Part shown: positions 12,401 through 56,850 of the stretch, piece by piece
How the letters are laid out: every line of letters begins with the position of its first letter
How positions within the stretch are numbered: the stretch's first letter is position 1
Assembly: GCF_036373705.1 (NCBI RefSeq)
Contig: NC_089869.1
Coordinates: forward strand, 17,001,550-17,065,549
Origin: Amia ocellicauda
Lineage: Eukaryota; Chordata; Actinopteri; Amiiformes; Amiidae
Length of the DNA stretch: 64,000 nt
Reading direction: 5' to 3'
Notes under the pieces: generated by a model
Database searches by the model: none
Seen by the model: the letters and a program-made list of their open reading frames with translations, nothing else
Told to the model about the DNA's origin: nothing
Position numbers and translations under genes: made by a program

Positions 12401-12798
12401 TTGCCTTGGAGCAGTCCTGGCGCTAGTAGGGTACTTTCTGTTCAGTGTCTCAAACCGCAACTGGAGATCAAGGTATGTGTAAACGCACACATGTGTAAAC
12501 AGCATGGGCACCCAGATTTCAAATCCAGTAAACACATCATGAGTTATGTTTGCACGAAAACCAGAGGGTATTATTAAGCAAAAATATACAAAGAACATAT
12601 TTGATGCCCATGAATAATACATGTATATCTATATATGCTTCACATCATCTAAATGCATACTAACTTTGTCGCATTTCAAGTTCTGTAATTAGAAATCGGA
12701 TCAATTGGGTGCTAATTAAATGCAATTTGTATTAATTGTATACAGACCAAATCATCCCATATGACCTATTTGTGGGTTATATATATATATATATATAT

Positions 12799-13059
12799 CA
12801 GCTCTGGAAAAAATAAAAGACCACTGCAAAATCAGTTTCTCTGGTTTTACTATGTATAGGTATGTGTTTGGATAAAATTAACATTTTTGTTTTATTCTAT
12901 AATAAAATCCATAAATCCATAAAACAAGACAGCTAGTTTATCAAGGCAGCTGAAGTTTTAAAATATATGAATGGAATATGAATGGAATGGAATGACAGCC
13001 ATGTAGAGATGCTGATTTAAGAATAAATTGCAGTGGTCTCTTAATTTGTTCCAGAGCTG
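12799..13059. mobile_element. Tc1/mariner-type MITE (CAGCTCTGG family), copy 1
   Basis: A 261-bp element begins CAGCTCTGGAAAAAAT and ends with the inverted ATTTGTTCCAGAGCTG. The terminal repeat continues into a matching ACCACTGCA segment on both sides. TA dinucleotides flank it, as expected for the Tc1/mariner superfamily. It has no coding capacity. A second full copy in opposite orientation is at 27560-27793. Confidence 0.8.
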
Positions 13060-15529
13060 TATATAAAACCCAAATAAGGTTTTGAAATACCATTTGCTCA
13101 ATTGCAAGCTCCAGTAACAGAGTTGTATGATGCATGCCATTCATCTTTGTAGCGGCAATCCGCTACAACATGCTCTGCCTTGTTTGCATTGTTACCGAAA
13201 TAGCTGACAAAGAGTTTTCGGGACAATCCTTGGAAGCGGGTCAAACGCACCCACTGGTCTCAGAGGAAGCGTCGGTGGACGTGCGCAACTGTCCCAATCT
13301 CACTTTGGGGTGGGGGGGTGGAAGGTTTTCACTGGGGGTGTGGACTGGTATTCCCACAATCATCCCATTCACTATCCGCTTTCACCTCTACCCCCACCCT
13401 AAAAAAGCGCCCTGATCTAGAAGGGCAGACAAGAAAAACTGCACGTAGCAACTGAACTGAATCGCTGCGAGGTATCCTGCTTTAATTATCCACAGGATCA
13501 ACTGCATCTCGTTAGATCTAGTTTTAATAATGTAGATCTATACTTAAAGATATAATTATATTGAAAGCATAACCAGATCATACTGATGCATTTCACCCTA
13601 CATCTCCAGAACAGAAAATCGACTGCTTTTACACATGAAGGGACGTAAGAGTTATTGAATATAATTTAAAACTTCAGCTGTCTTGTCTTGTTTTATGGAT
13701 TAAAACCAATCTTAAACTATGTCAGAATCAATATAAGTTAGAAAGGTTTTTTGTATATTCTGACAATAATTCTGCCAAACCATTTCATCATTTTTTTGCC
13801 TGTAACTGCTTACTAATAGATCTGTGTGGTATAGATTTCGGTAAGCAAATTAAAGTGTCTCACGTCTACTTCCACCCTATCTTAAGGCATTGCATTATGA
13901 CGCACATCCTCTTATATGACTCAGATTTATTTATGCAAAGTAACATCTTCTGTTGTAAAAGTGGTTAAAACAACAATGCAATGGTGCCAGGTCTGTGGAG
14001 GCACACAAACCAAACAGTGAATTCCCATCCACAGTATGAGTTGTTTATCTCAGAGGGAGGACATGAAAGACGTGCTCAGTGGACTGGGGGGTTGGATTAC
14101 CTCTTTTCTGTACAGCGACCAGAGGAATATCAGATGTTACTCTGCCAAACTGTTTAGCCAGCTAGACAAAAACACAATATCATATTAAGCTGGTTGATGG
14201 AAATTGGATTTTCCAAAACATTGTGAAATGAGGCTACAGCTGCATTATTTACGGGGAAATGTAAATACATACATATCTTTTCCAAATTAATTTAAGCATA
14301 AAGAGAAGCAAGACATACTGTTGTTTACAATACTGGCCTGACCGATTTAATTTCTGAAATACATTTTAAAAGCCATATTAAAAAAACAAGCATAAAGACA
14401 GATTTCAGATGATCCAGTTTTTAATAAATACAGCATTTGTACTGATGCAATTATCTTAAATACTAACTGGCATACTTCAATTATTCAACACAAGCAGATT
14501 CACAGGGTACACTTGATTTAATCATAAAAGGAGGAAGCTAAATAATTTGAATCTAGTCCCTGCATAGTTAAAAGTACAACATATATACAAATATAAAGTT
14601 TAAACTAGAAATGAAACGCTTGTCTTTAATTGGCTCAGTTGTCTAAGAAAAGGTGTCCATTTTCTAAACGGAACAGTTACTGTAATTAAGTAAAGGGGAT
14701 ATGGAGTCATTATTTTAGCAGCAGTACAGGCCAATCAAAGACAGTTGTTACACAGTAATAAATTATTTCCAAATATTTTTCCATAGAATTCTTTCATCTT
14801 TAAAGCTTTCGATTCCTGTTCTCCAGTCAAAAGACACCGATGCATTATCCAGAGATCTGCAGGTATCCCATCCTTGTCTTGTTTCACCGAACTCCATGAG
14901 TACATGTCCTCAGAAAGTTCATTCTTCAGCTACAGGCGTGTTGAGGAAAGTGCAGTCTAGCCCTTCTGGACTAAACATGCTGCTTCACGGACAGTATGAG
15001 AGGGATTGTTTATTGGTGTGTATGTTTTTACAATCCAGTGATTGTGAAGGCTTGGACAAGGAATTAAATATGTTTGTAATACAGTCCAACAACTTGGTTC
15101 TTCGGTCATCGTTGACTCTATAAAACAACCTGGAGGGACAAAAATACAACTGGCATGAAAACCTCACAGTGTATCAACAATAATAAAGTAGGGCTGCTAC
15201 ATTCAAAGACAAAACTCAACATTGAAGACAATACCAAGAACAGGGAGGAAATTGGAAAGTGCTGAAAAGAAGAAATGGAATGAGCTTTTAAAGTGTCTGA
15301 AAGCCATGCATAGTAGAGAGAAAAACATGACAAATAGGCAGATCTTTCGAAATTACTCTATTGAAAGGCACAGTATGGCAAGGCCTCCCCCAAAGTCCAT
15401 GAATCTGAGCAGATCCAAAATGGAAAAAAAGTGTTGGGAAAACAGAAAAGGGAATTTGAAACTTTTCAGTCAGGTTGAAGTAATTCTGCAAGTATAAATA
15501 ACACACCTATCTGTGTGGCAGTGGCATTT

Positions 15530-19260: not shown

Positions 19261-22200
19261 CATCATCATCATCATCATCTATTTCTTAGCAGACGCCCTT
19301 ATCCAGGGCAACTATAAAGACAAGGCTGGAGAAAAAAATGGGATGAGATTGTACAGACAGGAGGACCTTTAGGATTAGAAAGCCTTTATTCCGTCTGTAG
19401 CCAAAATATGGAAAAATCCTTCTTGTCAGCAGTAATAATTAATCAATCTTAAAACAAGTAAAACTATCTGACTTGTAGAACATAAATAATGGCAAGCTTT
19501 TTTCAGGATTACAAACTTATTTATATTTTACAAATGTTCAAAAGAAATACAGTAAACAATATATTCCTACAAATGCAACATTGTTAATGATATTTCAGTC
19601 CCTTCCTATTTCTTACCATTTTAAGCAGATGTCCCTTGATGCAAACACCGAGAAACAACCCAATACTGACATCTACAGACGAATGAGTTGAAAGCAGCAA
19701 AAGCACAGTAACAAGGTGCTTACCTTTAAAAGCCTCAGTTGCACCTGGAGCGTGGTTTTTATCTGGATGGAACTTCAGGGCTAGTTTTCTATATGCCTTT
19801 TTCAAGTCATCTTCTGTAGCATCTCTATTGACTCCCAGAATTTCATAATAGTCCTTACACTGTTTTATTCTGGGAACAGCACAAAATAACCAAATAAATT
19901 AAAACAAACAAACAAAAAAACAACAACACAATGCTAAGAAATCTAAGACGTAGGCATTAGAAAGCAAGTCTCAAAGTGATACCTATAAGTAGCAATAATC
20001 TACACTCACCTAAAGGATTATTAGGAACACCATACTAATACTGTGTTTGACCCCCTTTCGCCTTCAGAACTGCCTTAATTCTACGTGGCATTGATTCAAC
20101 AAGGTGCTGAAAGCATTGTTTAGAAATGTTGGCCCATATTGATAGGATAGCATCTTGCAGTTGATGGAGATTTGTGGGATGCACATCCAGGGCACGAAGC
20201 TCCCGTTCCACCACATCCCAAAGATGCTCTATTGGGTTGAGATCTGGTGACTGTGGGGGCCAGTTTAGTACAGTGAACTCATTGTCATGTTCAAGAAACC
20301 AATTTGAAATGATTCGACCTTTGTGACATGGTGCATTATCCTGCTGGAAGTAGCCATCAGAGGATGGGTACATGGTGGTCATAAAGGGATGGACATGGTC
20401 AGAAACAATGCTCAGGTAGGCCGTGGCATTTAAACGATGCCCAATTGGCACTAAGGGGCCTAAAGTGTGCCAAGAAAACATCCCCCACACCATTACACCA
20501 CCACCACCAGCCTGCACAGTGGAAACAAGGCATGATGGATCCATGTTCTCATTCTGTTTACGCCAAATTCTGACTCTACCATCTGAATGTCTCAACAGAA
20601 ATCGAGACTCATCAGACCAGGCAACATTTTTCCAGTCTTCAACTGTCCAATTTTGGTGAGCTTGTGCAAATTGTAGCCTCTTTTTCCTATTTGTAGTGGA
20701 GATGAGTGGTACCCGGTGGGGTCTTCTGCTGTTGTAGCCCATCCGCCTCAAGGTTGTACGTGTTGTGGCTTCACAAATGCTTTGCTGCATACCTCGGTTG
20801 TAACGAGTGGTTATTTCAGTCAAAGTTGCTCTTCTATCAGCTTGAATCAGTCGGCCCATTCTCCTCTGACCTCTAGCATCAACAAGGCATTTTCGCCCAC
20901 AGGACTGCCGCATACTGGATGTTTTTCCCTTTTCACACCATTCTTTGTAAACCCTAGAAATGGTTGTGCGTGAAAATCCCAGTAACTGAGCAGATTGTGA
21001 AATACTCAGACCGGCCCGTCTGGCACCAACAACCATGCCACGCTCAAAATTGCTTAAATCACCTTTCTTTCCCATTCAGACATTCAGTTTGGAGTTCAGG
21101 AGATTGTCTTGACCAGGACCACACCCCTAAATGCATTGAAGCAACTGCCATGTGATTGGTTAATTAGAAAATTGCATTAATGAGAAATTGAACAGGTGTT
21201 CCTAATAATCCTTTAGGTGAGTGTATTTCCACCTCCTAATGTAGGATATCTTAAGTTGTCCCGGAAAAAAAAAGTGGAGGCTAATGAGTTATACATAATT
21301 GATGGAGAAAATGGGAAACAAAATGAATGGCAAATAAATACCTTTTGACGGCATCTAGCTGATCTGGCGTGTATGGTTTGCTGGTCTCTGTGGTTTTCTC
21401 CCCGGCCGTGGAGCACCCCCCCTCCCCTGCTCTCCGGCGGTGTGCTCCTTTACACTCACTGGGGCCCGACTGCTGGGGCTGGCTGGACGGCTTCCCATTC
21501 TGTGTGATTGACTCTATCAAGGCTGCAACAAAAGAGCATCCCTGTGTCATTGTGCTGTGGCAATGCACTTGATTCAGTTCAGCCTGGGCCATGCCATGGG
21601 AAAATCAACTTTTTCATTTTATTTTGTAATGTACAATGTGCACTGCAGTTAAATGCCAATTCAGAACTTTGCAGTTCAGCTATTAGCATAAACATTTGTA
21701 TTTAAAATCACAAGAAATGTGGAAAATAAGTACTTCACCTGTGTGTAATCCCCATGACTCCAGATCAGATTTCTACCAATTCTCATGCTTTCAAATCAAA
21801 CTCTCCTGTTTGTGATCTTCTCTGGCTTTTAAGTATTATTACTGTTTGTGTGTTTCTAATGTATAAATGCGTCTGCCAGATAATAGTACAACAGACAGTA
21901 ATATTCATAGTCCATCAATCCAAGTCGTATGGAACATCATTTCACAAGTAGTATAATGATCAACACTTTACAGTCGTTAGTACTATAATAAGTAATATTT
22001 GCATTTATATTTAATTTAATTCAATTGCAAATGCAAAATTTCAACAACACAGTCATTTACATGTAAATGTACATGGTCTATGAAGCAGACTGACTCTATG
22101 TCCTCTCTCTCTGTGACACACACAGTTTTCCCTCTGTGCATGTCTCAGTACCTTAACTCCAGAATGGTTTTAGTGATGTAGAACATCTAGAACAATGACT

Positions 22201-27530: not shown

Positions 27531-27559
<29 letters not shown>

Positions 27560-27561
<2 letters not shown>

Positions 27562-27793
27562 GCTCTGGACAAAAATTAACAGACCACTGCAAATTTTTCT
27601 TAAATCAGCATCTCTACATGTATGGCAGACATTCCATTCCATTCAAATTTGTATTTGGAATTTAGGAGAAATGTTGTCAGTAGTTTATAGAATAAAACTA
27701 AAATGTTAATTTTACCCAAACACATACCTATAAATAGTAAAACCAGAGAAACTGATAATTTTGCAGTGGTCTCATTTTTTTTCTCCAGAGCTG
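27560..27793. mobile_element. Tc1/mariner-type MITE (CAGCTCTGG family), copy 2
   Basis: A 234-bp element flanked by TA, with ends CAGCTCTGGACAAAAAT and CTCCAGAGCTG. It aligns along most of its length with the reverse complement of the copy at 12799-13059, including shared internal segments (the CATCTCTACATG region). It is non-coding. A TA tract separates it from the DD36E transposon at 27808. Confidence 0.8.
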
Positions 27794-27807
27794 TATATAT
27801 ATATATA

Positions 27808-29025
27808 CACTCACCTAAAGGATTATTAGGAACACCTGTTCAATTTCTCATTAATGCAATTATCTAACCAACCAATCACATGGCAGTTGCTTCAATGCAT
27901 TTAGGGGTGTGGTCCTGGTCAAGACAATCTCCTGAACTCCAAACTGAATGTCTGAATGGGAAAGAAAGGTGATTTAAGCAATTTTGAGCATGGCATGGTT
28001 GTTGGTGCCAGACGGGCCGGTCTGAGTATTTCACAATCTGCTCAGTTACTGGGATTTTCACGCACAACCATTTCTAGGGTTTACAAAGAATGGTGTGAAA
28101 AAGGAAAAACATCCAGTATGCGGCAGTCCTGTGGGCGAAAATGCCTTGTTGATGCTAGAGGTCAGAGGAGAATGGGCCGACTGATTCAAGCTGACAGAAG
28201 AGCAACTTTGACTGAAATAACCACTCGTTACAACCGAGGTATGCAGCAAAGCATTTGTGAAGCCACAACACGTACAACCTTGAGGCGGATGGGCTACAAC
28301 AGCAGAAGACCCCACCGGGTACCACTCATCTCCACTACAAATAGGAAAAAGAGGCTACAATTTGCACAAGCTCACCAAAATTGGACAGTTGAAGACTGGA
28401 AAAATGTTGCCTGGTCTGATGAGTCTCGATTTCTGTTGAGACATTCAGATGGTAGCGTCAGAATTTGGCGTAAACAGAATGAGAACATGGATCCATCATG
28501 CCTTGTTACCACTGTGCAGGCTGGTGGTGGTGGTGTAATGGTGTGGGGGATGTTTTCTTGGCACACTTTAGGCCCCTTAGTGCCAATTGGGCATCGTTTA
28601 AATGCCACGGCCTACCTGAGCATTGTTTCTGACCATGTCCATCCCTTTATGACCACCATGTACCCATCCTCTGATGGCTACTTCCAGCAGGATAATGCAC
28701 CATGTCACAAAGGTCGAATCATTTCAAATTGGTTTCTTGAACATGACAATGAGTTCACTGTACTAAACTGGCCCCCGCAGTCACCAGATCTCAACCCAAT
28801 AGAGCATCTTTGGGATGTGGTGGAACGGGAGCTTCGTGCCCTGGATGTGCATCCCACAAATCTCCATCAACTGCAAGATGCTATCCTATCAATATGGGCC
28901 AACATTTCTAAAGAATGCTTTCAGCACCTTGTTGAATCAATGCCACGTAGAATTAAGGCAGTTCTGAAGGCGAAAGGGGGTCAAACACAGTATTAGTATG
29001 GTGTTCCTAATAATCCTTTAGGTGA

Positions 29026-29028
<3 letters not shown>
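27808..29028 (+). mobile_element. Intact Tc1/mariner DD36E transposon, copy 2
   Basis: 1221 bp, exactly the length of copy 1, with the same 29-bp terminal repeats and flanking TA. It is inserted within a TA microsatellite that now extends for about 60 bases beyond its right end. Near-identity to copy 1 indicates recent activity of the family in this lineage. Confidence 0.92.
27956..28996 (+). CDS. Tc1/mariner DD36E transposase, copy 2 (intact ORF)
   Basis: 346 residues, uninterrupted, with the same helix-turn-helix domain and catalytic boxes as the minus-strand copy at 20035-21075 ([28 protein letters not shown]; 36 residues between the second Asp and the Glu). The four differences from copy 1 lie outside the catalytic residues. 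It may still encode an active transposase, which cannot be judged from sequence alone. Confidence 0.93.
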   Translation: MGKKGDLSNFEHGMVVGARRAGLSISQSAQLLGFSRTTISRVYKEWCEKGKTSSMRQSCGRKCLVDARGQRRMGRLIQADRRATLTEITTRYNRGMQQSICEATTRTTLRRMGYNSRRPHRVPLISTTNRKKRLQFAQAHQNWTVEDWKNVAWSDESRFLLRHSDGSVRIWRKQNENMDPSCLVTTVQAGGGGVMVWGMFSWHTLGPLVPIGHRLNATAYLSIVSDHVHPFMTTMYPSSDGYFQQDNAPCHKGRIISNWFLEHDNEFTVLNWPPQSPDLNPIEHLWDVVERELRALDVHPTNLHQLQDAILSIWANISKECFQHLVESMPRRIKAVLKAKGGQTQY

Positions 29029-29095
<67 letters not shown>

Positions 29096-46103: not shown

Positions 46104-46479
46104 ATATGTAACACGGCTCATAGTGTGTATGAGTTCGTTACAGGTGACATAACCCCTCTGTAAAATCAATACAGTGATAAGGCGCCCATGTCGGGAGACC
46201 TGGTCTTTTGGCGTAACAGTAACTTTGACCCACCCGCTAATAGAAAACTACAAAACTGTACTCAGTGGCAACTTAATTTGTTGTAAGATGCTATTTTCTT
46301 CTTCTCATGAATGTAACTGCTGTTATGTACAGACTTGTAGTCTTCTATTAGAGGGTGGGTCAGAATTTTGATTTAATCCCACCCCTGGTCTTTTGACATA
46401 CTGGACTTATCACTCTCCTGGAGGAGTGTCTGTGCGGCACGATTCGAAACCCTACTGACTACATACACACACACACATA

Positions 46480-47248
46480 CACCAATCAGCCATAACATTA
46501 TGAACACCTGCCTAATATTGTGTAGGTCCCCCTTTTGCTGCCAAAACAGCCCTGACCCGTCGAGGCATGGACTCCACTAGACCTCTGAAGGTGTACTGTG
46601 GTATCTGGCACCAAGACGTTAGCAGCAGATCCTTTAAGTCCTGTAAGTTGCGAGGTGGGGCCTCCATGGATCGGACTTGTTTGTCCAGCACATCCCACAG
46701 ATGCTCGATTGGATTGAGATCTGGGGAATTTGGAGGCCAAGTCAATAACTTGAACTCGTGATTCATCAGACCAGGCCACCTTCTTCCATTGCTCCGTGGT
46801 CCAGTTCTGATGCTCACGTGCCCATTGTAGGCACTTTCGGCAGTGGACAGGGGTCAGCATGGGCACCCTGACTGGTCTGCAGCTACGCAGCCCCATACGC
46901 AACAAACTGCGACGCACTGTGTGTTCTGACACCTTTCTATCAGAACCAGCATTCACTTTTTCAGCAATTTGAGCTACAGTAGCTCATCTGTTGGATCGGA
47001 CCACACGGGCCAGCCTTCGCTCCCCACGTGCATCAGTGAGCCTTGGCCGCCCATGACCCTGTCGCCGGTCACCGCTTTTCCTTCCTTGGAGCACTTTTGA
47101 TAGGTACTGACCACTGCAGACCGGGAACACCCCACAAGAGCTGCAGTTTTGGAGATGCTCTGACCCAGTCGTCTAGCCATCACAATTTGGCCCTTGTCAA
47201 AGTCGCTCAGATCCTTACGCTTGCCCATTTGTCCTGTTATCAATTTTG
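46480..47248 (-). mobile_element. Tc1-like element (CACCRATCAGCC family), internally deleted, one end lost
   Basis: The end at 46480 begins CACCAATCAGCCATAACATT after TA and matches the ends at 55899, 56796, 52123 and 54389. The opposite terminal repeat is missing: homology stops just upstream of the transposase start near 47248. The internal deletion is the same as in the 55899-56796 copy. Confidence 0.8.
46512..47243 (-). pseudogene. Transposase pseudogene, internally deleted
   Basis: The N-terminal helix-turn-helix ([20 protein letters not shown]) and the C-terminal block ([20 protein letters not shown]) are present. The central catalytic region after WSDES, including the second Asp, is deleted, and the frame changes across the junction. 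A further break splits the N-terminal part near 46970. Confidence 0.85.
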
Positions 47249-49876: not shown

Positions 49877-50189
49877 GGTAAGACATGCCTGCTTAGTCAC
49901 TAGATGCCTTCGAACTTAGGGGTTAAATTAAAGATTTTAATTTGGAAAAATTACTGCTCTGAAGGAATTAGAGGACAAGCTGTAATCACTTGTCTTCCGA
50001 CCCCACAGAGAAATGTTGTCTTACTATTGGTTTAATGTATGCCAGCTTTCTCTAAGACATGTCACTAACCTCAAGAAAAACATATGTGACTTAATCCCTG
50101 GTTTCAACATCAAAACACAGTCCTTCACAAACATTGATCAGAAGGTAATTGCCCGATATAGCAAAAGTTCATTGTCAGACACTCACAAA

Positions 50190-50227
<38 letters not shown>

Positions 50228-50532
50228 GTCCCCATGAACACCAGAAAGAAAAACTGGATGTCTTTCAGCTTCAAGGTTCAGACAGTGAACTGTGATGAAC
50301 TGTTTACTACTAGATGTTTCAATTCTCGATTTGCCACAGGTCACTACTAACAGCAGTTCCACTGTGCAAGAATAATATGTTTTTCCCTGAAAACCCCCCA
50401 GCATTTTATAATAATCTCAGTACTATAATGTAAATAACTTATTTAGGTTTCAGTGTAATTAGTGGAATAAACACATATATAATGAAAGGTTAAGTTAAAA
50501 ACAAATAAATGGTAAATCAGGCTAATATATCT
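49877..50532 (+). repeat. Dispersed repeat copy A (pre-insertion version of 51723-52703)
   Basis: It aligns with 51723-52703, sharing for example AGAAATGTTGTCTTACTATT and GGTTTCAACATCAAAACACA, but with scattered differences and a 75-base gap near its start. It lacks both transposons found in copy B, keeping the uninterrupted sequence at each site. An 84-codon open frame in copy B and in its inverted duplicate is only partly kept here. No protein family is recognised. Confidence 0.85.
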
Positions 50533-50590
50533 AATTTCTTTAAGGTTTTCTTCTAAATAATTTTCTGTAAAACAATGTTGTTTTGTACGT

Positions 50591-51087
50591 AACCTTATTA
50601 GCACCACAGAGAAAAAAAGTATGACTGCGTTAATACAATAAAATATTGTGGTATTTCATAATAATTATTGTGTTAATACAAGATGATATTGCATTACTTT
50701 AAAACGTTTGTGGTAAGTTGATTGTAGGCATATATACAGTGAGGTTTACAAATATAATTATAAAAAATATGTTTGAAGCATATTTAACCATTTAACTAAA
50801 AACATTTACTGCAACTTGTAGTTTTCTTCTAATTGTGTTTATTTCAATGTTCATATCATTATATTGCACCAAGTATAATCCCCTGTCACTAAAACAGAAT
50901 AAATGTAATGTATTCTTGATCCTCCTATAGAATGATTTGAATCCCAAAGCAAACTTATTTTGTATTAATGCAATAATTATTGCGAAATAACACAATATTA
51001 TCTCCTATTTACGCAATAATTATTGTGAAGTAAAGCAATATTGTATTAACACAATAAGTTTGTTTTCTCTGTGGCGCTAATAAGCTT
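50591..51087. mobile_element. MITE-like element with about 90-bp imperfect terminal repeats
   Basis: The left end contains CTTATTAGCACCACAGAGAA and the right end its inverse, with one mismatch. Further inward both arms continue with related sequence rich in ACAATAATTATTG. It is non-coding, about 500 bp. It lies between repeat copies A and B and abuts the outer edge of the inverted duplication. Confidence 0.6.
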
Positions 51088-51220
51088 CCGTTGTTTTGGC
51101 CAATATCTTACACTGTTGTCAAAGTGATTATCGAACAAAGAAGTATGTTAATGATATACTTAGATTAGGTTATTTAAATGTTAAATTCTGAAGAGAACAC
51201 TACATCTTGATAATATATAT

Positions 51221-51659
51221 TGTGACAGCGTGCGGGGAGTGGTACAAGAAGAGACGTCATTTAGGACAACACGGTCGCCCATCTTCCCTTCTACACGCTG
51301 CATGACAGTGAAAACACTGCATCACTCACCTATCGGGCTGTGCAAAGGGCCCACACCTGTACCGCTTTAAGCGTTTGCATTAAAGCTCACCCCAAACAAA
51401 ACTCGATGCAAAGTACCTGAGGGTAAAGTGTGAAGGGTGAATAGGTGAGCGAAAGCTACTTGATGAGAGAAAATTAGAGAAAGAGACTAACTGACACCAT
51501 GGATAACAACCCATTTCTGTCTGTCAACCCCACTTGGATAACAGACCCGGACTGAACTCTGACGATGACACTGCCTAACCCCCTTAAACGACCCCATATT
51601 ACAGCAGTCCAGACCCACGACTCCTAACGGGCACAGCTACCACCCCACGCAGTGCCACA
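51221..51659. mobile_element. 439-bp MITE with TGTGRCAS ends
   Basis: The ends TGTGACAGCGTGCGGGG and CCCCACGCAGTGCCACA are imperfect inverted repeats. An 8-bp ATATATAT lies on each side; this could be an 8-bp target duplication (as for hAT) but the surrounding TA repeat makes it ambiguous. The interior is CpG-richer than the flanks and non-coding. An inverted second copy is at about 55064-55502 in the right arm. Confidence 0.6.
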
Positions 51660-51722
51660 ATATATATATCATTTCCATCACCATCATGTGTGGAAACAGT
51701 TTGAGAAATAAACAGTCTTAAT

Positions 51723-52327
51723 GGTAAGACATGCCTGCCAAATGTTGCCTGCTAGAGTTATAGCAATCAGGTGTATTAATTAAGTCATGATTGCTTAGTC
51801 ACTGGACACCTTCAGATTTAGAGGTCAAGTTAAAGGTGTTCATTTGGAAAAATTACTGCTCTGAAGGAATTAGAAGACAAGCTGTAATCAGTTGTCTTCC
51901 GACCCCACAGAGAAATGTTGTCTTACTATTGGTTTAATGTATACCAGCTTTCCCTAAGGCATGTCACTAACATCAAGAAAAACATATTTGACTTAATCCC
52001 TGGTTTCAACATCAAAACACAGTCCTTCACAAACATTGATCAGAAGGTAATTGCCCGATATAGCAAAAGTTCATTGTCAGACACTCACAAAATAAATAGG
52101 ATTTTATTTGCATATATATATACACCGATCAGCCATAACATTATGACCACTGACAGGTCAAGTGAATAACACTGATAATCTCGTTATCATGGCACCTGTC
52201 AGTGGGTGGGATATATTAGGCAGCAAGTGAACATTTTGTCCATGCCTCGACGGGTCAGGGCTGTTTTGGTGGCAAAAGGGGGACCTACACAATATTAGGC
52301 AGGTGGTCATAATGTTATGGCTCATCG

Positions 52328-52371
<44 letters not shown>

Positions 52372-52703
52372 GTCCCCACAAACACTAGGAAGAAATATTG
52401 GATGTCTTTCAGCTTCTCCTGATTTGTAGTGTTTCAAGGTTCAGACAGTGAACTTTGATAAACTGTTAACTGCCAGCTGTTTCACTTCTCGATTTGCCAC
52501 AGGTCCTACTAACAGCAGTTCCACATGAGGAATAATGTTTAAGTGAATAATATATTTTCCCTGAAAACCCTCCAACATATTACAATAATCTTAGAAATAT
52601 AATGTAAAAAACGTCTTTAGTTTTCAATGGAAATAGTGGAATAAACACATATATAATGTAAGGTTAATTTTAAAACAAATAAATGCTAAATAAGGCTAAT
52701 ATA
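51723..52703 (+). repeat. Dispersed repeat copy B, carrying two insertions
   Basis: A tandem relative of 49877-50532. It carries the 208-bp MITE at 52123-52330, and its right end is interrupted at GGCTAATATA by the Tc1-like element starting at 52704. Copy A has neither insertion. Confidence 0.85.
52123..52330. mobile_element. 208-bp MITE of the CACCRATCAGCC Tc1-like family
   Basis: The TA-flanked ends CACCGATCAGCCATAACATT and GTTATGGCTCATCGGTG enclose only the two terminal regions of the larger element at 55899-56796. Its right part still shows the last transposase codons (GGCAAAAGGGGGACC). It is a deletion derivative. Confidence 0.9.
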
Positions 52704-54170
52704 CAGTGGCTCTCAAAAGTATTCACCCCCCTTGGACTTTTTCACGTCATTGTCCATGCATGAATTCAGAATGGATTTAATCTGGAGTTTTTGCCATTGA
52801 TCAACACAGAAAATGTCGATAATGTGAAAGTGAAAAATATAATCTGCAAATTGTTCTAAATAAATTACAAATACAAAACAGAAAATACTTGAATGTATAA
52901 GTAATCACCCCTTTGTTATGACACACCTGACTGAGCTGTGATGAAACCAACTGTCTTTAGAAGTCACGTAATTAGTTGAATGAAGTCCACCTCTGTGCAA
53001 TTGAGGTGTGTCACATGATTTCAGGTTAAATACACCCATCTCTGGGAGGTCCCACAGTTGCTTAGTGCAATTCCTAACAACAGCTGCATCATGAAGACGA
53101 AGGAACATTCAGTGCAAATCCGGAATAAGGTTCTTCAAAAGCACCAATCAGGGGTAGGATATAAGAACATTTCCAAGGCATTGAATATCCCCCAGAGCAC
53201 AGTAAAGTCCATTTTTAAGAATTGGAGAGAATGTGGCACAACTGTGAATCTGCCTAGATCAGGCTGTCCTCAAAAACAGAGTATCCGGACGAGAAGGGCA
53301 CTAGTCAGGGAGGCCACGAAGAGACCTATGGCAACTCTAAAGGAGTTAGTCTTCCATGGCTGGGAGCTGGGAGACACCATGCATACTGCAATAATAGCCC
53401 GGGTGCTTCACAAAAGTGGCCTTTATGGGAGAGTGACTAAACAGAAGCCATTGTTGAAAGAACTTGCATCAAATCTCATCTAGAGTTTGCCAGAAGGCAT
53501 GTGGGAGACTCTGAAACCAAGTGCAGGAAGATTCTATGGTCTGATGAGACCTCAACGCTAAGCACTATATTTGGCACAAGCCTAACACCGCACATCATCC
53601 TGAGAACACCATCCCTACCGTGAAGCATGGAGGTGGCAGCATCATGCTATGGGGATGCTTCTCTGCGGCAGGGCCTGGAAACCTTGTAAAGATAGAGGGC
53701 AAAATGGATGCAGCAAAGTACAGAGAAATCCTGGAAGAAAACCTGCTGAAGTCTGCAAGAGACCTGGGACTTGGGAGAAGATTAATCTTCCAGCAGGACA
53801 ATGACCCCAAACATACAGCCAAGGCCAGACTGAAGTGGTTTAGAAACAAAAAGGTCAATATCCCGGTGTGGCCCAGTCAAAGACCCGACCTCAATCCAAT
53901 TGAGACTATGTGGAAAGAGTTGAAAATTGCTGTTCACCAAAGGTGCCCATCCAAGTTGATGGAGTTTGAGCAATTTTGCAAAGAAAAATGGGCACAAATT
54001 GTTGTGTCCAGATGTCCACAGCTGGTAGAGACTTGTCCACATAGACTCATTGCTGTAATTGCTGCCAAAGGTGCCTCTACCAAATATTGACTGAAGGGGG
54101 TGATTACTTATGCATTCAATTATTTTCTGTTTTGTATTTGTAATTAATTTAGAACAATTTGGTTATATTT
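52704..54170 (+). mobile_element. Tc1-like DD34E transposon, right end truncated
   Basis: The left end begins CAGTGGCTCTCAAAAGTATT after TA. The left terminal repeat is long (over 200 bases), and its inner part recurs inverted near 54100-54170. The outermost roughly 135 bases of the right repeat are missing: homology stops at about 54170, exactly where the inverted arm begins. Confidence 0.88.
53091..54090 (+). pseudogene. Tc1-like DD34E transposase pseudogene
   Basis: The N-terminal part starts MKTKEHSVQIRNKVLQKHQS and contains the helix-turn-helix to about 53483. The catalytic C-terminal part (53620-54090) has GGGSIMLWGCFSA, FQQDNDPKH and a slightly altered RPDLNPIETMWKE, with 34 residues between the second Asp and the Glu. 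A stop at 53481-53483 and frameshifts up to about 53620, including a damaged WSDET region, separate the two parts. Confidence 0.87.
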
Positions 54171-54324
54171 AACTGCTGTTAGTAGGACCTGTGGCAAATC
54201 GAGAATTGAAACAGCTGGCAGTTAACAGTTTATCAAAGTTCACTGTCTGAACCTTGAAACACTACAAATCAGGAGAAGCTGAAAGACATCCAATATTTTT
54301 TCCTAGTGTTTGTGGGGACATGTG

Positions 54325-54391
<67 letters not shown>

Positions 54392-55626
54392 CGATGAGCC
54401 ATAACATTATGACCACCTGCCTAATATTGTGTAGGTCCCCCTTTTGCCACCAAAACAGCCCTGACCCGTCGAGGCATGGACAAAATGTTCACTTGCTGCC
54501 TAATATATCCCACCCACTGACAGGTGCCATGATAACGAGATTATCAGTGTTATTCACTTGACCTGTCAGTGGTCATAATGTTATGGCTGATCGGTGTATA
54601 TATATATGCAAATAAAATCCTATTTATTTTGTGAGTGTCTGACAATGAACTTTTGCTATATCGGGCAATTACCTTCTGATCAATGTTTGTGAAGGACTGT
54701 GTTTTGATGTTGAAACCAGGGATTAAGTCAAATATGTTTTTCTTGATGTTAGTGACATGCCTTAGGGAAAGCTGGTATACATTAAACCAATAGTAAGACA
54801 ACATTTCTCTGTGGGGTCGGAAGACAACTGATTACAGCTTGTCTTCTAATTCCTTCAGAGCAGTAATTTTTCCAAATGAACACCTTTAACTTGACCTCTA
54901 AATCTGAAGGTGTCCAGTGACTAAGCAATCATGACTTAATTAATACACCTGATTGCTATAACTCTAGCAGGCAACATTTGGCAGGCATGTCTTACCATTA
55001 AGACTGTTTATTTCTCAAACTGTTTCCACACATGATGGTGATGGAAATGATATATATATTGTGGCACTGCGTGGGGTGGTAGCTGTGCCCGTTAGGAGTC
55101 GTGGGTCTGGACTGCTGTAATATGGGGTCGTTTAAGGGGGTTAGGCAGTGTCATCGTCAGAGTTCAGTCCGGGTCTGTTTTCCAAGTGGGGTTGACAGAC
55201 AGAAATGGGTTGTTATCCATGGTGTCAGTTAGTTTCTTTCTCTAATTTTCTCTCATCAAGTAGCTTTCGCTCACCTATTCACCCTTCACACTTTACCCTC
55301 AGGTACTTTGCATCGAGTTTTGTTTGGGGTGAGCTTTAATGCAAACGCTTAAAGCGGTACAGGTGTGGGCCCTTTGCACAGCCCGATAGGTGAGTGATGC
55401 AGTGTTTTCACTGTCATGCAGCGTGTAGAAGGGAAGATGGGCGACCGTGTTGTCCTAAATGACGTCTCTTCTTGTACCACTCCCCGCACGCTGTCACAAT
55501 ATATATTATCAAGATGTAGTGTTCTCTTCAGAATTTAACATTTAAATAACCTAATCTAAGTATATCATTAACATACTTCTTTGTTCGATAATCACTTTGA
55601 CAACAGTGTAAGATAGTGGCCAAAAG
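54171..55626. repeat. Right arm of 4.5-kb inverted duplication
   Basis: The reverse complement of 51094-52520, with a longer TA microsatellite (about 54330-54388) and a handful of substitutions. It contains inverted copies of the 208-bp MITE (54389-54596) and the 439-bp MITE. Confidence 0.9.
54389..54596. mobile_element. 208-bp MITE, inverted copy in right arm
   Basis: Same length as and reverse complement of 52123-52330, copied as part of the inverted duplication and not an independent insertion. Confidence 0.88.
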
Positions 55627-55898
55627 AGCATTGTTTACAGAAAATTATGGATCACTCCCAACACATTTTTACTCTTTTTTGATCACCATCTGCACTGATT
55701 TGTTGTCCAAGGTAGACATAACTTTTTCGACTTCTTGGAGTATACATTTTCTTTTCTTAGATTTAACAAATCTGTTAAACATTGTGGAGTCAGATTGTTG
55801 ATTTAGTATTTTTGTAGATATATTTTATAAGAGTTCTATGGGTTTCCTCAATGATTTCTTAGAGCTCTGATGATTGAGTTTTTATATATTGAATTGTA

Positions 55899-56796
55899 CA
55901 CCAATCAGCCATAACATTACGACCACTGACAGGTGAAGTGAATAACACTGATAATCTCGTTATCATGGCACCTGTCAGTGGGTGGGATATATTAGGCAGC
56001 AAGTGAACATTTTGTCCTCAAAGTTGATGTGGTAGAAGCAGGAAAATTGGGCAAGCGTAAGGATCTGAGCGACTTTGACAAGGGCCACATTGTGATGGCT
56101 AGACGACTGTGTCAGAGCATCTCCAAAACTGCAGCTCTTGTGGGGTGTTCCCGGTCTGCAGTGGTCAGTACCTATCAAAAGTGGTCCAAGGAAGGAAAAG
56201 CGGTGAACCAGCGACAGGGTCATGGGCGGCCAAGGCTCACTGATGCATGTGGGGAGCGAAGGCTGGCCCGTGTGGTCCGATCCAACAGACGAGCTACTGT
56301 AGCTCAAATTGCTGAAAGAGTTAATGCTGGTTCTGATAGAAAGGTGTCAGAACACACAGTGGGTCGCAGTTTGTTGCGTATGGGGCCGCGCAGCCGCAGA
56401 CCAGTCAGGGTGCCCATGCTGACCCCTGTCCACTGCCGAAAGCACCTACAATGGGCACGTGAGCATCAGAACTGGACCACGGAGCAATGGAAGAAGGTGG
56501 CCTGGTCTGATGAATCACGAGTTCAAGTTATTGACTTGGCCTCCAAATTCCCCAGATCTCAATCCAATCGAGCATCTGTGGAATGTGCTGGACAAACAAG
56601 TCCGATCCATGGAGGCCCCACCTCGCAACTTACAGGACTTAAAGGATCTGCTGCTAACATCTTGGTGCCAGATACCACAGCACACCTTCAGAGGTCTAGG
56701 GAAGTCCATGCCTCGATGGGTCAGGGCTGTTTTGGTGGCAAAAGGGGGACCTACACAATATTAGGCAGGTGGTCATAATGTTATGGCTGATCGGTG
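55899..56796 (+). mobile_element. Tc1-like element (CACCRATCAGCC family), 898 bp, internally deleted
   Basis: Both terminal repeats are present (CACCAATCAGCCATAACATT; GTTATGGCTGATCGGTG) with flanking TA at 55897-55898 and 56797-56798. It keeps the 5' part of the transposase and its 3' end but lacks the catalytic middle. Confidence 0.92.
56029..56778 (+). pseudogene. Transposase pseudogene with internal deletion (249-codon fused frame)
   Basis: The frame starts at a GTG (56029), which suggests a lost ATG. The helix-turn-helix half reads [18 protein letters not shown] and continues to VAWSDESR near 56510. There a deletion joins directly to the sequence encoding [21 protein letters not shown], but in another frame. 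The remaining 80 or so codons of the long frame are thus nonsense, and the true C-terminus is in frame 56459-56764. The second catalytic Asp is absent. Confidence 0.88.
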
Positions 56797-56850
56797 TATA
56801 TATCAAATTGCAGTGTGCATTATCTTGAAGTATTTCTTTGTGGTGGTTGT

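Follow-up and report, generated by a model that had tools for sequence, protein, structure and literature searches.

Anatomy of the inverted repeat

We analysed a stretch of 64,000 nucleotides from Amia ocellicauda (contig NC_089869.1, positions 17,001,550–17,065,549 of the forward strand; hereafter the window), in which a preliminary description had pointed to a recent inverted duplication whose breakpoint cuts a Tc1-like transposon. The left arm, copy B (51094–52520, + strand), and the right arm, the inverted copy B' (− strand; 54171–55625 in the pairwise alignment), are reverse complements of one another over 1455 columns, with five mismatches and one gap, the gap being a 28-bp indel within an (AT)n tract. 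The substitutions lie at 51103, 51485, 51539, 52392, and 52485 and amount to 5 in 1427 aligned bases, the 28-bp indel apart. The arms are thus near-identical, as first described, and their interior is 99.7% identical, a difference of about 0.3%. The unique centre between them (52521–54170), a spacer of the kind expected in a fold-back structure, is composed of 183 bases that continue copy B (52521–52703, + strand) and are absent from B', followed by the Tc1-like element from 52704. The inner limits of the arms stand as originally placed, but the outer ones do not, because the homology, once a 504-bp insertion in the left arm is passed over, extends outward to 50557 (left) and 55648 (right). 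The full extent of B' is therefore 54171–55648, the last part of which (55626–55648) is extra outer homology that includes the empty insertion site.

The window also holds an older direct paralogue of an arm segment, copy A (49879–50585, + strand), with a tail at 50530–50585 whose last part, 50557–50585, is also common to the outer end of B'. Copy A matches B at 91% over 347 columns (49879–50225 against 51781–52125) and, further on, at 81% with gaps counted over 372 columns (50190–50529 against 52334–52703). In the genome searched (988,188,214 bases in 385 contigs), the arm stretch 51781–52100 has three matches, all within the window, which are B, B', and A; the genome search match for A is 93% over query positions 1–318. 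A and B stay collinear up to 52703, next to the start of the Tc1-like element. Since A is collinear with B across 52520/52521, that junction is old and the junction at 54170/54171 is new.

Two shared repeats lie inside the arms. One is an internally deleted Tc1-like miniature inverted-repeat transposable element (MITE; 52119–52336, + strand), which is present in both arms and absent from A on alignment, and which is 97.5% and 98% identical to the two ends of a Tc1-like copy at 55897–56803. The other, at 51221–51659 in B and 55060–55498 in B', is an old interspersed repeat flanked by AT-rich sequence, with ends of the form TG...CA. It has 38 genome matches, two of which are the arms, and the best outside the window is 75% over query positions 2–401; half of the other matches (18 of 36) begin at positions 1–3 or end at positions 437–439 of the 439-base query.

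A truncated Tc1-like element at the inner junction

The element in the centre (52704–54170, + strand) starts at a TA dinucleotide and encodes the Pfam domains HTH_SB, HTH_Tnp_Tc3_2, and DDE_3, which are spread over two separate open reading frames (ORFs), the transposase frame being broken. The domains, the match of the end repeat, and the left end at TA are those of a Tc1/mariner element, and the right end is missing: the right terminal repeat stops at 54170 and B' begins at 54171. We compared the element with other copies in the genome, scoring 40 of 5077 candidates. Eleven listed copies align up to element position 1466–1467, with the end repeat matched to its first base, and extend 107–141 bp further; in 9 of the 11 the extension is 134–141 bp. 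In one such copy on contig C1 (8539168–8540640), for example, the end repeat reaches 8540775, and a fetched copy (L028:7806–9392) has both Tc1 ends. These copies confirm that the right repeat is about 135 bases short and that the inner breakpoint of the inverted duplication cuts the element. The element of the window differs from near-full-length copies by 13–18%, and its missing end has no other match within the window at an E-value of 1e-5.

The inner junction, TTATATTT/AACTGCTG, is blunt and lies inside the transposon repeat, which points to break repair or template switching. When both parental sequences were compared by eye, no bases were common to the expected Tc1 end and copy B at this junction of spacer and arm, and no inverted microhomology of at least 2 bp was seen; a short match could be masked by later mutation or by the 13–18% divergence among copies.

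A MITE-like insertion marks the outer edge of one arm

The insertion at the outer edge of the left arm (50586–51089) is 504 bp long and occurs in that arm only. It has imperfect inverted ends of about 105–113 bp that are 75% alike, and is flanked by a perfect 9-bp duplication, GTTGTTTTG, at 50577–50585 and 51090–51098. By its 9-base duplication and its long inverted ends it may be a MULE-like element. B' holds the corresponding empty site. The homology beyond the insertion has a local alignment score of 35, as against 29 at most in 2000 single-base shuffles of the flank, and two of the nine target bases differ between the arms (GTTGTTTTG in B, GCTCTTTTG in B'). In a family search that scored 40 of 86 candidates, the 105 listed genome matches, self-matches included, contain no other match longer than 200 bp above 84%; shorter listed matches reach 87% over 132 bp and higher values over pieces of less than 50 bp. 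A recent insertion therefore has no visible source among them, and the family looks old. Further out, the right flank of B' (55681–55782) gives weak matches (74–87% over 30–84 columns) to three fetched loci and may be part of an old repeat.

Differences between the copies are unevenly distributed

Over 1451 columns, with the 28-bp microsatellite indel left out, B and B' differ at eight points, seven substitutions and one single-base deletion. These are concentrated toward the arm ends: four of the eight lie in the outer 34 columns and six within 130 columns of an end, both cuts having been picked after the differences were seen. Applied to the distance from the nearest arm end, a Kolmogorov–Smirnov test, for which no cut has to be chosen, returns p = 0.0024 on these few events (n = 8). 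With A as the outgroup, the difference at 52392 is derived in B' and that at 52485 is derived in B, the others not being polarisable. One inner difference is thus derived in each arm, so not all of them are errors of a single copying event.

Copies A and B are themselves a mosaic. Excluding the (AT)n and MITE columns, we count 7 differences in 255 columns within 49940–50230 as against 47 in 344 elsewhere, a contrast that 1 of 2000 permutations matched. Conversion thus seems to be active within the cluster, and A bears a conversion-like patch relative to B.

Exon-like stretches in A and B

In both A and B, an open exon-like stretch is accompanied by one acceptor-like and one donor-like site, a further acceptor-like site, and an AATAAA motif, an arrangement that resembles the last two exons of a gene. 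In A, the exon-like stretch is at 50009–50144 (counted as 50006–50145) with splice-type borders, a short terminal frame follows at 50340–50375, and an AATAAA lies at 50466; in the equivalent unit of B the terminal frame is shifted. From 49879 up to where B' begins, the + strand carries ten copies of the motif, among them the sites at 50466 and 52640 that lie 3' of the exon-like stretches of A and B. The 56-residue exon-like translation matches no Pfam family at an E-value of 1, its best PDB match has an E-value of 1.6, and inspection by eye of the + strand ORFs from 39.7 to 50.6 kb revealed no upstream exon. Since the exon-like stretch is also not the least diverged part, we rejected a gene in the arms as anything beyond a possibility. 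Constraint on an exon was rejected as the cause of the low-divergence A–B patch as well, because the exon-like stretch holds five of the seven differences of the patch (5 of 140 columns, as against 2 of 115 around it). No function or product is supported for the inverted repeat.

Rarity and genomic setting

We sampled 20 stretches of 10 kb as a small base-rate count, 13 from contig C1 and 7 from contig C2, and none from the contig of the window (C26). No inverted pair with arms longer than 400 bp occurred in the 20 stretches; the 11 listed inverted pairs or self-palindromes of at least 150 columns have a maximum length of 360 columns. Comparison of the window with itself lists 10 direct and inverted pairs of at least 200 columns, of which the arms are the longest and two pairs of inverted Tc1-like copies come next. 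The first of these (19998–21226 and 27805–29033) consists of copies in opposite orientation with 99.1% identity over 1229 bases and a 346-residue open transposase frame in each, the transposase domains having been checked for the 19998–21226 copy only. The second (46477–47236 and 56039–56799) is 96.5% identical over 761 columns; the copies concerned, 46477–47236 and 55897–56803, are internally deleted, and the left one is without the first ~140 bases of the other. A further inverted pair, 12784–13062 and 27557–27807, is 76% identical, and the segment 47571–49388 is bounded by sequences that by eye resemble another Tc1-type inverted end (TACACTACCGGTCAAA.../...TTTGACTGGTAGTGTA). Elsewhere in the window, PDB sequence matches mark an exon for an acyl-CoA desaturase at about 37 kb and one for Wnt-8 at about 63.5 kb; these point to an animal, by inference a vertebrate, and the Tc1 load makes a fish probable.

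Formation and age of the inverted repeat

The reading we favour, at a little under even odds, is a real inverted duplication in a three-copy cluster (A, B, and B') that is older than it appears and whose arm interior was homogenised by gene conversion up to the MITE-like insertion. The Tc1-like element would first have landed in copy B. A break within its right terminal repeat would then have been mended with an inverted copy of B, either joined on or used as a template for replication, leaving the product B–truncated Tc1–B'; we infer, as the preferred route, that the broken end was repaired by switching to an inverted template. The MITE-like element would have inserted afterwards at the outer edge of B, and arm-to-arm conversion would have removed the interior differences as far as that insertion, so that the 99.7% identity would understate the age of the duplication. 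The choice lies between a duplication that predates the insertion and was later homogenised and a B' that lost the element. We favour the former at about one half, because an old-looking insertion faces an empty site, the differences cluster at the arm edges, and A and B form a mosaic. With somewhat less confidence, we can also read the locus as a small vertebrate inverted repeat in which one transposon insertion forms the abrupt boundary of a tract converted between the arms, with pre-conversion divergence readable just outside it, in a cluster whose direct copy also exchanges sequence. Of the original claim of a recent duplication, the near-identity stands and the recency is less secure, given the insertion in one arm, the empty site in the other, and the four of eight differences in the outer 34 columns.

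Several points weigh against homogenisation of an older duplication. Identity inside the MITE-like family bounds the age of the insertion only loosely, and the insertion could be late if a young source was lost, unscored, or unassembled. The short outer extension consists of 29 columns to the left of the insertion plus 5. There are only eight point differences in total, the cuts applied to them are post hoc, and the four outer ones could be repair-synthesis errors or an excision footprint. The Tc1-derived MITE common to both arms looks young (97.5–98% to its neighbour), which follows directly from a recent duplication but under conversion requires a transfer between the arms. Finally, the inner junction is without microhomology, unlike most of the fold-back junctions given in PMC3907307.

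The first alternative is a recent inverted duplication without homogenisation, in which B' was copied lately from B, the MITE-like element was skipped or excised, and the target was altered; we consider this possible, though distinctly less probable than an older, homogenised duplication. The element could have been lost, for example, by slippage between the 9-bp repeats across the hairpin-forming ends. Slippage is favoured by long inverted ends between direct repeats. The interior identity and the young-looking shared MITE speak for a recent event, as do the two changes inside the 9-bp target, which are as expected from an excision footprint or from errors in local copying. Such an account requires an extra loss event, however, and the inner-end differences, derived one in each arm, indicate that the clustering at the ends is not merely an artefact of copying B'.

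A second alternative, which we hold to be about as possible as a recent copy, concerns the route and not the outcome: the flank of a small inversion may have been duplicated through staggered breaks, or a perfect palindrome, once longer, may have lost its centre by asymmetric deletion. Either can produce a blunt inner junction together with arms around a unique centre. PMC11499932 mentions staggered breaks that lead to inversion with duplication, and favours ectopic recombination for most herring inversions. The polarity of the junctions, with 52520/52521 ancestral and 54170/54171 new, neither demands nor excludes these routes, and the missing Tc1 end is not matched elsewhere in the window at an E-value of 1e-5.

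The remaining explanations are improbable. A chimeric join of two haplotypes in the assembly would account for a divergence of ~0.35% and for unequal microsatellite lengths, both of which resemble two alleles. The arms are inverted, however, and sit in unlike flanks, one carries an old-looking insertion where the other has an empty site and extra homology, and the tested arm stretch 51781–52100 has no further copy in the assembly. The earlier argument against a read-through artefact agrees with this anatomy and with the one derived substitution in each arm, an assessment made on the assembled sequence. Slightly less probable still is aberrant transposition of the Tc1-like element, which had been offered among the possible origins: the inner junction does coincide with the element, but transposition is disfavoured because the joining falls about 135 bp inside the right terminal repeat, so that the end cut by transposase was not used, no target duplication is seen by eye at the outer limits, and the frame is split into separate ORFs. 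Least probable of all is a functional hairpin locus that produces double-stranded RNA or endogenous small interfering RNA, to which near-perfect 1.43-kb arms around a 1.65-kb centre would be suited, given the ten + strand AATAAA motifs before B' and the absence from the window of any Rfam family at gathering score.

Comparison with known systems

The inverted repeat looks like a real but ordinary kind of repair scar with an informative anatomy. Arm identity is often used to date near-identical inverted repeats, and an insertion in one arm that faces an empty site in its partner is a warning that the ages so obtained may be minimum values. Otherwise a modest structural variant, this would be a simple locus for ordering duplication, insertion, and conversion, given sequences from relatives.

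In human fold-back inverted duplications, as presented in PMC3907307, inverted copies likewise surround a spacer of normal copy number, mostly of a few kb, as compared with 1.65 kb in Amia. The Amia copy differs from these in being interstitial, only 1.4 kb long, and bluntly joined at its inner junction. Of the 21 sequenced junctions reported there, 13 have 2–8 bp of microhomology, 3 are at homologous repeats, and 5 have insertions, so on that account a blunt join is not a fold-back signature. Microhomology-mediated break-induced replication comes closer in outcome, as the model outlined in PMC2621351 has a second inverted template switch restore a viable chromosome, and such a switch would give an interstitial inverted copy. 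Unlike the products described there, the one junction in Amia at which both parents can be read has no microhomology.

The closest parallels to the homogenisation that we favour are the long inverted repeats of Caenorhabditis, whose arms are kept alike (PMC1803023), and the human Y palindrome P6 (PMC3723533). Compared with both, the Amia arms show no complete gene, neither arm is as long as the centre, and the evidence comes from one species only. In P6 the minimum lengths of conversion tracts average 2068 bp, which would be enough to cover the Amia arms. Like the Caenorhabditis repeats and P6, the Amia locus combines near-identical arms with signs that their identity may understate their age.

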